Below, one piece after another: positions 489 through 33,482 of a DNA stretch of 34,041 nt. The notes beneath the pieces were generated by a model. That model searched no databases, was not told the origin of the DNA, and worked only from the letters and a program-made list of their open reading frames with translations. The stretch is taken from positions 1 to 34,041 of IMG/VR virus record IMGVR_UViG_3300005588_000028; one strand, 5' to 3'. The DNA is from a virus. Made by a program: the position numbers and the translations under genes. Position 1 is the first letter of the stretch, and every line of letters starts with the position of its first letter.

Positions 489-498
489 AAAATTTTGG

Positions 499-1011
499 TT
501 AGTTGGTTAAAAATGGCTTACTTTTTAATTGTTGTGTTTTTTGTATTCCAAATTTTAGGTTTATTGCTATAGTACTTTCTAAATGACATTTTTCTCCTTT
601 ATCTTTGGGGGCTGTGTATCCGTACTCCCATGAAGTTGTTATAGTATCTCCTGTTTTAGGGTCTATAGTTATTTCTGGAAACTTTCTAGGATTTTTTACA
701 AACGCCGAACTCTCGTACGACCTGTAAAAATACTCTCCTGTTTTATCCTCGCATTTCATTACGTCAAGCCAAGTATACTTCCCGGGCTTTTTTATTTCAC
801 CTGTGGACACAAACCTAGGGGTAGTACCTACTTCTACTAGCTCCGTTAGTGGTGCTATTTCTTCGTATACAAACCAATTATTGCGAGGCATTAAACTCAA
901 ATAAGTATACTCTACTAGTAGAGGTAGTATTGAAAAAAGCAATGCGAATATTATTCCGTTTGCTATTCTGTGTCTTTTCTTCTTAACAAGTTTTACAAGT
1001 AATTCACACAT
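499..1011 (-). CDS. Membrane-anchored late protein, unknown function
   Basis: 170 residues. The N-terminus is short and basic (KLVKKKRHRR-like), followed by one hydrophobic segment at about residues 17-40 (IIFALLFSILPLLVEYTYL), then a polar domain rich in Thr, Lys and Tyr with two cysteines about 50 residues apart, so a type II membrane protein with an external domain is likely. Start ATG at 1011 is in an ATATATG context. It sits 3 bases after the 101-residue membrane protein gene and its stop TAA lies inside the leader of the cysteine protease, overlapping the AACCAACTAACC motif there. In tailed phages this position, next to lysis genes, suggests a spanin-like or entry-related role, but no lipobox or coiled coil is visible. 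I do not recognise the family. Confidence 0.7.
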   Translation of the reverse strand: MCELLVKLVKKKRHRIANGIIFALLFSILPLLVEYTYLSLMPRNNWFVYEEIAPLTELVEVGTTPRFVSTGEIKKPGKYTWLDVMKCEDKTGEYFYRSYESSAFVKNPRKFPEITIDPKTGDTITTSWEYGYTAPKDKGEKCHLESTIAINLKFGIQKTQQLKSKPFLTN

Positions 1012-12746: not shown

Positions 12747-12820
12747 AGTTTTTAGTGCCGTCCTTTGCGTATAGCGTCCGGGTTTGGCAATTAGTTGGTT
12801 AAATTATATCTCTTTGCTCT

Positions 12821-13392: not shown

Positions 13393-13716
13393 CTATGATA
13401 TATTATTTAATAATTCTCGCTCTAGCGACTTGCGTCGTTCTAGCGGTTCTTTTATGAAAGTTATAATCGCCTCGTAGTTTTCTATCCTTGCTACGGTGTA
13501 TAGCGCTTCTCTATCTTCGCCTAGTTTCGCATGTTCTTTTAATACGCGTTGTAATTTTTTTACTTGCGTTTCTAGAAATTTTGCTACTTCTTCTATACGA
13601 ACCTCGGTACTCAATGTTTTTTCCCATTCTTCGTATGTTTTGCGTTCTAGGTCTGTTAGCTCGCTGTAGTCTTTTACTCCTAGCTTTTTTAGATACTCTA
13701 CTAGTATGTTTTTCAT
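13393..13716 (-). CDS. Helical protein after portal, unknown function
   Basis: 107 residues, almost entirely helical and heptad-like (VRIEEVAKFLETQVKKLQRV; EPLERRKSLERELLNN). Start ATG 13716 is in AACCAACCTATG, so the start region carries AAAACCAAC (13719-13727), complementary to the small RNA loop. It follows the portal gene by 50 bases. It may be a coiled-coil head assembly factor; no family recognised. Confidence 0.62.
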   Translation of the reverse strand: MKNILVEYLKKLGVKDYSELTDLERKTYEEWEKTLSTEVRIEEVAKFLETQVKKLQRVLKEHAKLGEDREALYTVARIENYEAIITFIKEPLERRKSLERELLNNIS

Positions 13717-13765
13717 AGGTTGGTTTTGTTTATTCTATTATACACTATTTTTATGTGTATGAATA

Positions 13766-24507: not shown

Positions 24508-24942
24508 TCACTTAGCCCTGTACTCTCCTATTTCTTTTGTCTTTTTTGTTTTCGGTTTTGGTTGTAGTGTTACTAGTTTTTCAGTTTTATTCGTTAGCTG
24601 ACTACCTGTCGATAGGTTTACACCTTCAAATATATCTTTTATCGGTTTTAGCTCTTTGTAATTTTCGTAGTTTTTAGCTTTTCCGTATCTGCTTTCTTGT
24701 TCGTTGCATTTACGTATTCGGCTATTTTGTATTTCTACCTCCTCTATCCGGTCTTTGTCTTCGGTTATACTTACGTAGTAGCTTGGATTAAAAATTCCTG
24801 AGCGTATTTTACATGGTGAGCCAGTTTTTACCGCTAGTACAATTTGCGGTAGTTCGTCCGTATCGCATGGCATAGCGTCCCCCTTACTTAGATTTACCTT
24901 GTAGGCTTGTAGTACCGGTTGGTTTAGTGGTGTTTCACTCAT
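24508..24942 (-). CDS. Protein downstream of replication initiator, unknown
   Basis: 144 residues. A beta-like start (PVLQAYKVNLSKGDAMPCDT; VLAVKTGSPCKIRSG) and a basic helical second half with NYENYKELKPIKDIFEG and a Lys-rich end. ATG 24942 overlaps the TGA stop of the replication protein gene (ATGA), so the pair is co-translated, which points to a replication-linked role. No domain recognised. Confidence 0.62.
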   Translation of the reverse strand: MSETPLNQPVLQAYKVNLSKGDAMPCDTDELPQIVLAVKTGSPCKIRSGIFNPSYYVSITEDKDRIEEVEIQNSRIRKCNEQESRYGKAKNYENYKELKPIKDIFEGVNLSTGSQLTNKTEKLVTLQPKPKTKKTKEIGEYRAK

Positions 24943-25691
24943 AGGCCTATTATTTCTTTTGATTTACTGCTTGATGTATCTCTTATTTTATCGCAATATG
25001 CTTTTAGTACACCTAGTTTATCCTCTAGTTGCATAGGCGTGGTTATTGTTGGGGCGTATTTCTTGCTATTTGTTTGTGGTAAAAAACGTATAATCCCCCT
25101 TATGCTTTCGTCTCCCCATTTATCTACTAGGCGTTGTAGTGCTTTACGCTGTGTTTTATTTGCGTATAGTCGTGTGTAGCTTGGGTTTACTGGCTCGAAC
25201 TCTTTTATTAGGTCGTTTAGCTTTGCTCCGTCATTGTTCTGCGTCGCTTCTGCGTCGCAAGTATTTGTAGTCTTTGATGTAGTCTCTGTAGTAGTCTCTG
25301 TAATAGTTGGTGGTTTTTTCCGCTTCTTGTTGGTGGTTTTTCCCCTATCCAGTTGGTGGTTTTTCCCCCATCTAGTTATTGCAACTATTAGCTCGTCCTC
25401 TTCTAGTGTATAGTATGTTTTTGCTGGTACTCCTCTGCGTTCTGTGGTTATTACTCCGCTTTCTACTAGACGTTTTTTTGCTGATTTTAATTCGTATAGT
25501 CCGCAACGTATATCATTGCAAAATTCTTTGTCTGTTTTGTAAAAATCTCCTCCCATTGTGTACCACCAGTATGCTATTTGTGATAGTAGTACGCCTCCTG
25601 CTACGCTTCCTGCTATATCTGCGTATGCTGGCTGGTATGCTATAGGTCGTTGGTTTAGGGCTACTAGCGCGCCCTTTGGTAGATTGCTCAT
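24939..25691 (-). CDS. Replication initiator with winged-helix domain
   Basis: 250 residues. The N-terminal 90 residues (SVAGGVLLSQIAYWW; KTDKEFCNDIRCGLYELKSA; RLVESGVITTERRG) form the winged helix seen in phage replication proteins of the lambda O/DnaD type. A Thr-rich linker (TETTTETTSKTTNT) follows, then a C-terminal helical domain (TQRKALQRLVDKWGDESIRG) that usually contacts the host helicase or its loader. No own helicase or polymerase gene is present, so the phage must recruit the host replisome. ATG 25691 is directly preceded by AAAACCAAC, complementary to the small RNA loop. Confidence 0.78.
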   Translation of the reverse strand: MSNLPKGALVALNQRPIAYQPAYADIAGSVAGGVLLSQIAYWWYTMGGDFYKTDKEFCNDIRCGLYELKSAKKRLVESGVITTERRGVPAKTYYTLEEDELIVAITRWGKNHQLDRGKTTNKKRKKPPTITETTTETTSKTTNTCDAEATQNNDGAKLNDLIKEFEPVNPSYTRLYANKTQRKALQRLVDKWGDESIRGIIRFLPQTNSKKYAPTITTPMQLEDKLGVLKAYCDKIRDTSSSKSKEIIGL

Positions 25692-25750
25692 GTTGGTTTT
25701 GTGAAGTAAATTATATATTCTAGTATAATACTTTTTTGTTTTTTAGGCGA

Positions 25751-27919: not shown

Positions 27920-28577
27920 CTAATTTTGCGCTTATAATTTTACTTAATTCAGCTTTTTGCTCTTTGTTATATATACTACTTTCCTTTATTCCCTCTAGTA
28001 CTTCTAGTAGGCGGTCTCCGTCCTTCATGTTTCCTATAAGGTTTTTTGCTGTTTGAAATTTTACTGCTGGCGTTGCTTCTGGTGAGGTTGCTCTCTTTTT
28101 GTCTGCTTTGTCGTCTTCTGCGTCCCCCTCGCTGGTTTCTACTTGGAAAAACTTTTGTAGGAAATACTTGTTAGCCATAGTATACGCTTTTGGCAATGCT
28201 TTGTCTGCTGCGTCTTGCCCTACTCCGTAGAAGTTTACTGTATGGCCTTGCCCTGTTTCTACGTCCCGTATTGTGTATGCTATGCAAACCTTTACTTGAA
28301 ACTCTGTATTCCCTTTGCTTGTTGTTACTTCCGTGCGGTCTTCTGATTTTGTAGTTAGATACAAAACTAGCCCTTGCGCTCCTAGAAGTGGTTTTATTTC
28401 TGCTATTAAATCTCGCTCTTTTGTATAGCTGTATTTGTGAAAATCATTATTTCCTAGCTTTGCTACTACTTGCACGCCTTGCTGTACGGCCATTACTTTT
28501 GCCCATAGTCCTTTTGGTTGCTTAGTCTTTTTTGGTTGCTTTTTACCTGTTGGCTTTTTGTTGGTTTCGTTTTTCAT
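27891..28577 (-). CDS. erf: ERF-family single-strand annealing protein
   Basis: 228 residues. The core (AKVMAVQQGVQVVAKLGNND; YSYTKERDLIAEIKPLLGAQ; VNFYGVGQDAADKALPKAYT; YFLQKFF) is the ERF pattern seen in P22 Erf and relatives. It anneals complementary strands. The C-terminal third is charged and helical. Codons 4-6 carry AAACCAAC, a partial match to the small RNA loop. ATG 28577 in AAATATATG. Confidence 0.9.
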   Translation of the reverse strand: MKNETNKKPTGKKQPKKTKQPKGLWAKVMAVQQGVQVVAKLGNNDFHKYSYTKERDLIAEIKPLLGAQGLVLYLTTKSEDRTEVTTSKGNTEFQVKVCIAYTIRDVETGQGHTVNFYGVGQDAADKALPKAYTMANKYFLQKFFQVETSEGDAEDDKADKKRATSPEATPAVKFQTAKNLIGNMKDGDRLLEVLEGIKESSIYNKEQKAELSKIISAKLDEIDNPKTT

Positions 28578-28581
28578 ATAT

Positions 28582-28908
28582 TTATCGCTCGTTATTAAAT
28601 AAATATGATAGTTCGTCTAGTCTCCCTAGTATTTTTTTTGTTTTTTCGCTTTCAATTTCTCCTATTCTATTCTCTTTTTCTTTTTTGAAGTTTGTATATA
28701 CGTGTTCGTATCTATGAATATCCCCTACAATTTGTCCTAATGAATACTCTTGCGTTTTTTTCTCTCCGTTGTATTCGTACACGACAGTTATCTTTAACCG
28801 TCGTAGTAAAGTATTACGGTCTACATATTCTCTTACAGCGTTTATTTCTTGGTCAAATTGCTGTTCTGCTTCCACTTCTATTCTTTTTTCTAGTTGTGTT
28901 TTTTTCAT
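28582..28908 (-). CDS. Helical protein before ERF, unknown
   Basis: 108 residues, charged and helical (EKRIEVEAEQQFDQEINAVR; IGEIESEKTKKILGRLDELS) with a short beta part (KITVVYEYNGEKKTQEYSL). ATG 28908; its leader has AACCAAC at 28916-28922. It lies between the coiled-coil and ERF genes and is probably co-transcribed. No family recognised. Confidence 0.6.
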   Translation of the reverse strand: MKKTQLEKRIEVEAEQQFDQEINAVREYVDRNTLLRRLKITVVYEYNGEKKTQEYSLGQIVGDIHRYEHVYTNFKKEKENRIGEIESEKTKKILGRLDELSYLFNNER

Positions 28909-28920
28909 AGCATTTGTTGG

Positions 28921-29526
28921 TTATCGACGGTTAGCTAATTGTTTTTCTATTTCTACTACTACCCCCGGGATTTCTACGCCGGCTAGTGCTGCCTTGCGAA
29001 TTTTTACCATATCTAGAATTAGATATTCGCGTGGTACTTTTGCCTCGTCTACTACTTTAGGCACTCGTACTTCCTTAAACGTTACGCTTCCGCTTTTCGC
29101 TTCTACCTTGTTTTGTGTTTCTGGTATAGCTTCCATTTTCTTAACGGCTGTATCTAGTTTCATTGTTCCTTTTTCTACACGTGCCGCTAGTTTAGCTTTC
29201 GCCTTACGTTCTTCTTCTTCGACTTTGTTTTGGTACGCTATCATTTTTTGACTTACTATTCGCTTAGCTTCGCTTTGTGCTGTCTCTAAAGGTTTGAACA
29301 ATTCTCGTGCGCTTTTTAGTCCTGCGTTTAGTGGTTTTGTTATAGCCTCTTTTCGAGCTTTTATCATGTCCCCTGTTTGGTTTATTTTACTTAGTAGCTC
29401 GGTCGCGCTTGCCATGTCTTCTTGGCTTTCTATCGTTAGTGCCTCGGACGCGTTTACTGCTTTTGTTGTGTTACTTTTTACTATCTTTAGTTCCTTATCT
29501 TCTGTTGTTTCGTTGGTTTTTTTCAT
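28921..29526 (-). CDS. Coiled-coil protein of recombination module
   Basis: 201 residues, mostly helical: a long heptad region (about residues 60-110; GLKSARELFKPLETAQSEAK, KMIAYQNKVEEEERKAKAKL) and a C-terminal domain (FKEVRVPKVVDEAKVPREYL; GVEIPGVVVEIEKQL). Proteins like this precede ERF/RecT genes in many phages and are sometimes called host-nuclease inhibitor or DUF1351-like; I do not assign one. Codons 3-5 contain AAAACCAAC. ATG 29526. Confidence 0.68.
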   Translation of the reverse strand: MKKTNETTEDKELKIVKSNTTKAVNASEALTIESQEDMASATELLSKINQTGDMIKARKEAITKPLNAGLKSARELFKPLETAQSEAKRIVSQKMIAYQNKVEEEERKAKAKLAARVEKGTMKLDTAVKKMEAIPETQNKVEAKSGSVTFKEVRVPKVVDEAKVPREYLILDMVKIRKAALAGVEIPGVVVEIEKQLANRR

Positions 29527-33038: not shown

Positions 33039-33067
33039 ATTATATGCCATACAAGTATTTATGTCGA
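33039..33067 (-). promoter_or_regulatory. Early promoter, TCGACA/TATAAT
   Basis: Minus strand TCGACA (33067-33062), 17-base spacer, TATAAT (33044-33039). Best sigma70 promoter in the window. The part around the -10 resembles the 29.8-kb and 24.46-kb promoters. Confidence 0.72.
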
Positions 33068-33096: not shown

Positions 33097-33129
33097 AAAA
33101 AAAGAAGCCCCGTAGTTGGAGCTTCTTTT
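33097..33129 (-). terminator. Rho-independent terminator closing late operon and small RNA
   Basis: Minus strand: GAAGCTCC-AACTAC-GGGGCTTC (8 bp, one G-U) followed by seven T. Strong intrinsic terminator. It separates the late genes from the early promoter and gives the 3' end of the small RNA. Confidence 0.9.
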
Positions 33130-33174
33130 CAAAAGAGCGCGCATATATGGAAAACCAACTAACCATATACGCGT
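33097..33174 (-). ncRNA. Candidate small regulatory RNA with complementary loop
   Basis: About 78 bases from a start near 33174 to the terminator. Promoter: extended -10 at 33181-33189. First stem-loop: 11 bp (33163-33173 with 33140-33150, one G-U) closing a 12-base loop TTAGTTGGTTTT at 33151-33162; then the terminator stem. The loop plus two stem bases (GGTTAGTTGGTT) is the exact complement of AACCAACTAACC at 497-508, 9 bases upstream of the protease ATG; including one more pair the match is 13 bases. The same core AACCAAC recurs near starts of the scaffold, 13.7-kb, replication, ERF and coiled-coil genes. A 35-codon ORF (33059-33166) crosses it but runs through the terminator stem. Confidence 0.55.
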
Positions 33175-33180
33175 ACTGCT

Positions 33181-33189
33181 ATTATAGCA
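33181..33189 (-). promoter_or_regulatory. Extended -10 promoter for the small RNA
   Basis: Minus strand TGCTATAAT directly after the holin-like gene stop. The -35 region is TTTCGC with a 17-base spacer, only three matches, so it depends on the extended -10. Confidence 0.6.
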
Positions 33190-33194
33190 TTATT

Positions 33195-33482
33195 TTACGC
33201 TTTGCGAAATGTTTTTAGTATATCGTTTAGGTAGTTACTACCCCGTCCTATTATCACTCCGCTTAGTGCGTAGTCTACTAGTGGATATGTTGATGAAATT
33301 CCTACTAGTTCTGGGATACTTACTTTATATGCTACCGCTAGACCTACTCCTAGAGCTAATGATACGTACCGCAAATATGTGCGTTTTCTTTGCATTGCTT
33401 CTGGTTTTCCGTCTCCTGCTATGTATTTGATTATTCCTTCTACAAATGTAGCTAGAAATAAAATTCCTGTTACTGCTTCCAT
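33195..33482 (-). CDS. Small membrane protein, holin-like
   Basis: 95 residues. Hydrophobic segments at about 3-20 (AVTGILFLATFVEGIIKYIAG), 36-55 (YVSLALGVGLAVAYKVSIP) and 66-78 (PLVDYALSGVIIG), separated by a basic loop with RKRTYLR. Phage proteins of this size and topology are often annotated as holins. It is the last gene before the terminator and follows the protease. ATG 33482 after AAACC. Compare the other candidate at 1015-1320. Confidence 0.68.
   Translation of the reverse strand: MEAVTGILFLATFVEGIIKYIAGDGKPEAMQRKRTYLRYVSLALGVGLAVAYKVSIPELVGISSTYPLVDYALSGVIIGRGSNYLNDILKTFRKA

Follow-up and report, generated by a model that had tools for sequence, protein, structure and literature searches.

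A holin-adjacent promoter-RNA-terminator unit in a metagenomic phage group and the complementarity of its loop to phage gene starts

The stretch of DNA analysed here (the window; 34,041 nucleotides, IMG/VR record IMGVR_UViG_3300005588_000028) is a phage contig of GC content 0.40 that carries a terminal repeat of 60 bp, and almost every gene of the window is carried by the minus strand. Read along that strand, an early module (helicase, exonuclease-like protein, ERF, PD-(D/E)XK nuclease and DnaD/O-like replication protein) is followed by two tRNAs and then by the terminase, portal, capsid and tail genes; a cysteine protease gene and a holin-like gene are reached across the contig ends, downstream of the tail genes. 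Directly 3' of the holin-like gene, which is the junction between the late and early modules, lies a compact unit of promoter, hairpin and terminator that spans 33208-33097 on the minus strand.

33195-33482, minus strand: holin-like gene upstream of the unit (phrog_20258, a family of unknown function)
33181-33208, minus strand: small RNA promoter, TTCGCA-16-TATAAT with an extended -10 (TGC), 10/12 matches
33097-33179, minus strand: predicted small RNA of ~80 nt, from just past the -10 box to the end of the U tract
33140-33173, minus strand: 11-bp hairpin with a 12-nt G/U-rich loop, from folding of the whole RNA (stem 33173-33163 paired with 33150-33140, loop 33162-33151)
33153-33165, minus strand: pairing segment UGGUUAGUUGGUU, the loop and three closing bases, from duplex prediction
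33097-33130, minus strand: intrinsic terminator, 13-bp stem (33130-33099) and U tract, from the unit finder and folding

A holin role for 33195-33482 is suggested by the position of the gene and its small hydrophobic product. The promoter and terminator are predicted from consensus matches, and the RNA start at 33179 is placed from the -10 box; on these consensus-based signals the unit has its own promoter, an intrinsic terminator and a noncoding location, as expected of a small RNA. The predicted RNA folds at -35.1 kcal/mol (z -6.4), and none of 200 shuffles was equally stable. An earlier note on this DNA, made from the letters alone, had described an extended -10 promoter, an 11-bp stem, a 12-base loop and a strong terminator, and all of these were confirmed. 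Exactly one promoter-RNA-terminator unit was found by the unit finder in the window genome, the one reported here, and an Rfam scan of the window returned two tRNAs only at the gathering score and no family for the unit. Just past the unit, at 33039-33067 and ahead of the first early gene, is a second and stronger promoter match (TCGACA-17-TATAAT, 11/12), so that the unit looks transcriptionally separate. The terminator is also placed to end late-operon transcripts and may therefore have a dual role.

The loop is complementary to the following sites at gene starts of the window (energies E in kcal/mol).

496-508, minus strand: cysteine protease leader, AACCAACTAACCA, 13 nt, perfect, at -20 to -8, ending 8 nt before the ATG (E -9.6)
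12791-12800, minus strand: leader of the scaffold-like gene, AACCAACTAA, 10 nt, at -54, just past a TATAAT
13719-13727, minus strand: ahead of gene 13393-13716, AAAACCAAC, 9 nt, at -11 to -3 (E -8.0)
24918-24925, minus strand: weaker site in the early codons of gene 24508-24942, AAACCAAC, 8 nt, at +17 (E -5.8)
25692-25700, minus strand: DnaD/O-like replication gene 24939-25691, AAAACCAAC, 9 nt, abutting the ATG (E -8.1)
28560-28567, minus strand: ERF ssDNA-annealing gene, codons 4-6, AAACCAAC, 8 nt (E -8.3)
28916-28922, minus strand: ahead of gene 28582-28908, AACCAAC, 7 nt, at -14 to -8 (E -6.0)
29512-29520, minus strand: exonuclease-like coiled-coil gene 28921-29526, codons 3-5, AAAACCAAC, 9 nt (E -7.8)

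Beyond the 13-nt match at the protease leader, pairing of 7-10 nt is found at six or seven further gene starts, among them that of the replication gene (phrog_9773) and those of several genes whose function is not assigned. Every pairing quoted in the earlier note was verified, and the site at 24925-24918 is an addition to its list. The holin-like gene itself has no target site of the loop. All targets lie on the same strand as the unit and more than 1 kb from it on the circular map, which sets the arrangement apart from cis-antisense RNAs of the OOP and sar type.

On the minus strand of the window AACCAAC occurs 14 times, and seven of these copies fall within -30 to +25 of a start, an interval that makes up 7.4% of the sequence (binomial p 2.5e-5); one further copy lies at -54. 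The total of about nine given in the earlier note was an undercount. No other arrangement of A4C3, of 35 in all, has as many start-proximal copies as AACCAAC (p = 0.002 against the other 34, more than one k-mer length and sequence-window size having been tried in the motif tests); A/C-rich leader composition accounts for some, not all, of the clustering. The reverse orientation, GTTGGTT, is at a start in 0 of its 2 copies in the window. Antisense matches of 8 nt to the loop lie near starts in 11 of 36 cases (p 3e-5), a value equalled by 1% of shuffled loops and 0.5% of random genomic segments, and seed complementarity to the start regions of separate genes thus exceeds chance in the window (~1% of controls). 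When leader 7-mers were scored against a Markov model of the leaders themselves, with the RNA sequence unused, AACCAAC, which is antisense to the loop, ranked third in enrichment. When loops were swapped between phages, the window's own loop outperformed all 10 foreign loops, and segments of other genomes reached its match in 0.8% of cases. The mean duplex energy across all leaders shows no preference for the own loop, the matches being confined to a subset of genes, and when leader-antisense counts were slid along whole genomes, low-complexity A/T words kept the unit from standing out in most phages.

Relatives were collected from IMG/VR (57 loci via the capsid protein; 18, then 21 via the holin-like protein). 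The same anatomy, consisting of a -10 box, a usually structured RNA of 30-80 nt and an intrinsic terminator, recurs in about ten divergent phages (G007, G008, G053, G056, G058, G052, G059, G062, G057, G064 and G054), part of these units having been recognised by eye and the rest also by the unit finder, and it stands directly after the same holin-like gene or one short gene later. Conservation of the unit by position and not by sequence is our firmest result. The exact loop GGTTAGTTGG is present in 0 of 50 relatives, and exact loop conservation is rejected; of the loop search in related phages that had been proposed, the outcome is that the position of the unit is kept and its sequence changes freely. 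One loop, GGTTTATGGTAA, is common to G007, G053, G056 and G058. A single exact match to the hairpin was found in IMG/VR; it falls on a gene start in an unrelated phage rich in GC and is taken to be chance. At the holin-adjacent locus of G005 there is a terminator only, the rest of the unit being absent, and G052 has two tandem promoter-RNA-terminator units 3' of the holin-like gene, at 35366 and 35465. No close relative of the window phage was found among phage GenBank records, none by protease or SNF2 helicase queries, and no homologue of the protease in the related phages fetched.

Agreement between loop and leaders is strong in G059 and G062, which are distant from the window and related to each other, so that they are not fully independent cases. 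An unbiased search ranked CATTGAGA first among their leader motifs, and the antisense of this motif is present in the unit, G-U pairs being tolerated; each of the three leader 7-mers at the head of the enrichment list (ATTGAGA, CATTGAG and TTGAGAA) has its antisense in the unit (UUCUCAAUGG). In both phages no foreign loop does as well as the own loop, and segments of other genomes reach the own-loop match in 0% (G059) and 0.2% (G062) of cases. The sites lie 0-12 nt upstream of the start codon. Leader variants with AACC, AATC or AACT ahead of ATTGAGA still pair with UCUCAAUGGUU via G-U, the variant bases facing UGGUU of the RNA in duplexes of up to 14 bp and -12.9 kcal/mol, a behaviour that RNA rather than DNA recognition would lead one to expect. 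Targets in G059 include a DnaD-like helicase loader, a Sak4-like annealing protein, a small cysteine-rich protein and others, and the target set of G062 differs from this one with partial overlap. A further pattern scan for RNAs of the G059 type returned the same phages only.

A second line of evidence comes from G008, a close relative that has 24 orthologues in common with the window and a different loop (window, GGTTAGTTGGTTTTCC; G008, GGTTACTATCTTTACC). Orthologues of window targets carry in G008 the complement of the loop of G008 itself (controls 0.4-4%), and the longest own-loop match correlates across the 24 orthologues with rho 0.51, a value reached by 0.4-1.6% of shuffled or random loops, a p-value that is optimistic because the G008 leaders had been inspected before the test; when the window loop is scanned on G008, rho is -0.12. 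The longest G008 matches (7 nt) belong to three orthologues, the exonuclease-like gene, gene 13393 and the scaffold-like gene, all of them window targets. G008 leaders share TAGTTAGATA, and copies of AGTTAGATA are at starts in 5/5 cases (L070/L071, reverse strand); this leading motif pairs with the G008 unit over ~6 nt only, its antisense is absent from intergenic stretches of the G008 coding strand, and AGATAG alone is not enriched at starts (7/46). No overall own-loop correlation was found between the window and orthologues in G007, G053 or G056; the sole start-proximal 8-nt match of G053 precedes the orthologue of the window's replication gene. The own-loop/leader match is weak or absent in G007, G056, G058, G052, G057, G064, G054 and G049, and, as most unit-bearing phages have no significant match, the loop/leader rule is not universal.

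Shine-Dalgarno-like leaders are not enriched (0.10 against 0.14 internally), and with a seed of GGUUAGUUGGUU the RNA does not belong with small RNAs that block G-rich Shine-Dalgarno sequences through a C-rich seed. Throughout the unit-bearing phages the corresponding fraction is 0-0.15, with no excess; it is 0.3-0.44 in G030, G036, G038, G040 and G045, distant capsid relatives where a holin-adjacent unit was undetected. Between a quarter and over a third of the genes of G007, G053, G056 and G058 open with AAAACC-ATG or AACC-ATG; this strong start context is specific to the lineage and contains no Shine-Dalgarno signal.

We hypothesize, at a probability of about 55%, that the unit encodes a phage RNA acting in trans to block or modulate the translation of a small regulon with replication and recombination genes at its core. 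From the computed unit, its positional conservation and its complementarity we infer transcription, pairing in vivo, repression and the timing of repression. A stable RNA of ~80 nt would be transcribed independently from its own host-type promoter, and its loop would expose the G/U-rich seed to the A/C-rich AACCAAC found where translation begins in the DnaD/O-like replication gene, ERF, the exonuclease-like protein, head-assembly genes and the protease. The most likely effect would be hindered ribosome binding, mRNA decay or both, and the target genes would be held down as the RNA accumulates, limiting, for example, the replication and recombination proteins. Interference with initiation appears most likely, given that the sites fall on or next to start codons and that the phage has no Shine-Dalgarno signal. 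Certain kinds of target recur: the DnaD-like helicase loader (window, the G053 orthologue and G059), ssDNA-annealing proteins (ERF for the window, a Sak4-like protein for G059), exonuclease-like genes and scaffold or head-assembly genes. Replication and recombination targets are seen in two phage groups with unrelated seeds. The action on gene starts in trans that the earlier note envisaged is favoured by the position of the unit, the G059/G062 matches and the G008 concordance; elsewhere the match is weak or absent. Its suggestion that the RNA times lysis against replication is not specifically supported; the recurrent targets are replication, recombination and assembly genes, and the holin-like gene is untargeted. 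Control of lysis timing is conceivable via the protease only, whose lytic role is putative.

There is a smaller but real chance that the unit is a genuine small RNA, or a late-operon terminator, with another job (acting on host mRNAs, or as a protein-bound RNA), and that the leader complementarity merely reflects composition, with leaders rich in A/C and poor in G facing a loop rich in G/U. This would account for the missing match in most unit-bearing phages and for the concentration of A/C-rich 7-mers as a class at starts, and it fits the four phages that keep the GGTTTATGGTAA loop while their AAAACC-ATG leaders are not its exact complement. Against it, CATTGAGA is not A/C-rich and has its antisense in the G059/G062 unit, AACCAAC exceeds other A4C3 words, and window and G008 orthologues are concordant.

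We regard it as improbable that a phage regulator binds the leader motif in double-stranded form, as an operator or promoter element, with one inverted copy in the unit. Although three window sites (12794, 13719 and 25692) lie directly downstream of TATAAT boxes and the unit's copy is near its own promoter, the copies are strand-specific (seven start-proximal against none inverted), several lie inside coding sequence or promoterless operons, the variants follow G-U pairing rules and the inverted copy sits in a hairpin loop. Least probable of all is activation, in which leader binding would uncover the start, make the mRNA more stable or guide the ribosome to phage messages; the sites are immediately around starts, and Shine-Dalgarno-like leaders in unit-bearing phages are no commoner than the coding background, but small RNA pairing usually hinders initiation when, as here, it falls on or next to the start codon.

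A repressive, trans-acting RNA at this locus would resemble lambda OOP, P22 sar, P1/P7 c4, VP882 VpdS and lambda PreS in being a short phage-encoded RNA that tunes phage or host genes by base-pairing (PMC12197685). OOP, sar and c4 have phage-gene targets, mainly one each, and VpdS and PreS work with Hfq, the target of PreS being host dnaN (PMC12197685). In contrast to OOP, sar and c4, the window loop would serve about seven dispersed phage genes via a repeated leader motif, and, unlike all of these RNAs, the unit comes from a metagenomic phage group and has no Rfam match. The Gram-positive small RNAs RsaE, RNAIII and LhrC, which have C-rich seed motifs, similarly use one short loop or single-stranded seed against a common element at many ribosome-binding sites and block translation; they are bacterial, with the seed UCCC and the Shine-Dalgarno sequence as target (PMC9217828, PMC4132741), whereas the RNA proposed here would be phage-borne, with a seed that varies between phages and a phage-specific, non-Shine-Dalgarno leader element as target. 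The principle of a multi-target seed is hence already known, and its phage-borne form would be new if the RNA is expressed. Control of several of a phage's own genes through one shared leader element is known for few phage small RNAs, and a limited literature search found no description of a holin-adjacent one. Confirmation would establish that replication genes are controlled after transcription in phages that lack Shine-Dalgarno signals, and would provide a discovery rule for metagenomic phages: scan the late/early module junction and check the loop against the leaders of the same phage. It is a more speculative and rather unlikely extension that each lineage of such phages possesses a private leader, shared by a regulon of its genes, and a matching holin-adjacent antisense RNA, co-evolving as a phage-specific translation code, which, if true, could also separate co-infecting phages.

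Three further sequence elements were observed. An array of 18-bp spaced repeats containing GGTTTATGGTAA (G016, 28849-29184, reverse strand) seems to have no connection with the unit. GCCTATG, found at late genes (e.g., starts 10249, 11747, 13012 and 15541), is more enriched than any other start context of the window, and no antisense partner of it was found in the unit. A GC-rich stretch is kept in the scaffold leader (window ~12770-12791, GCCAAACCCGGACGC; G008, GCCAAACCCGAGGACGG), is repeated in G008 and is possibly a structured leader.
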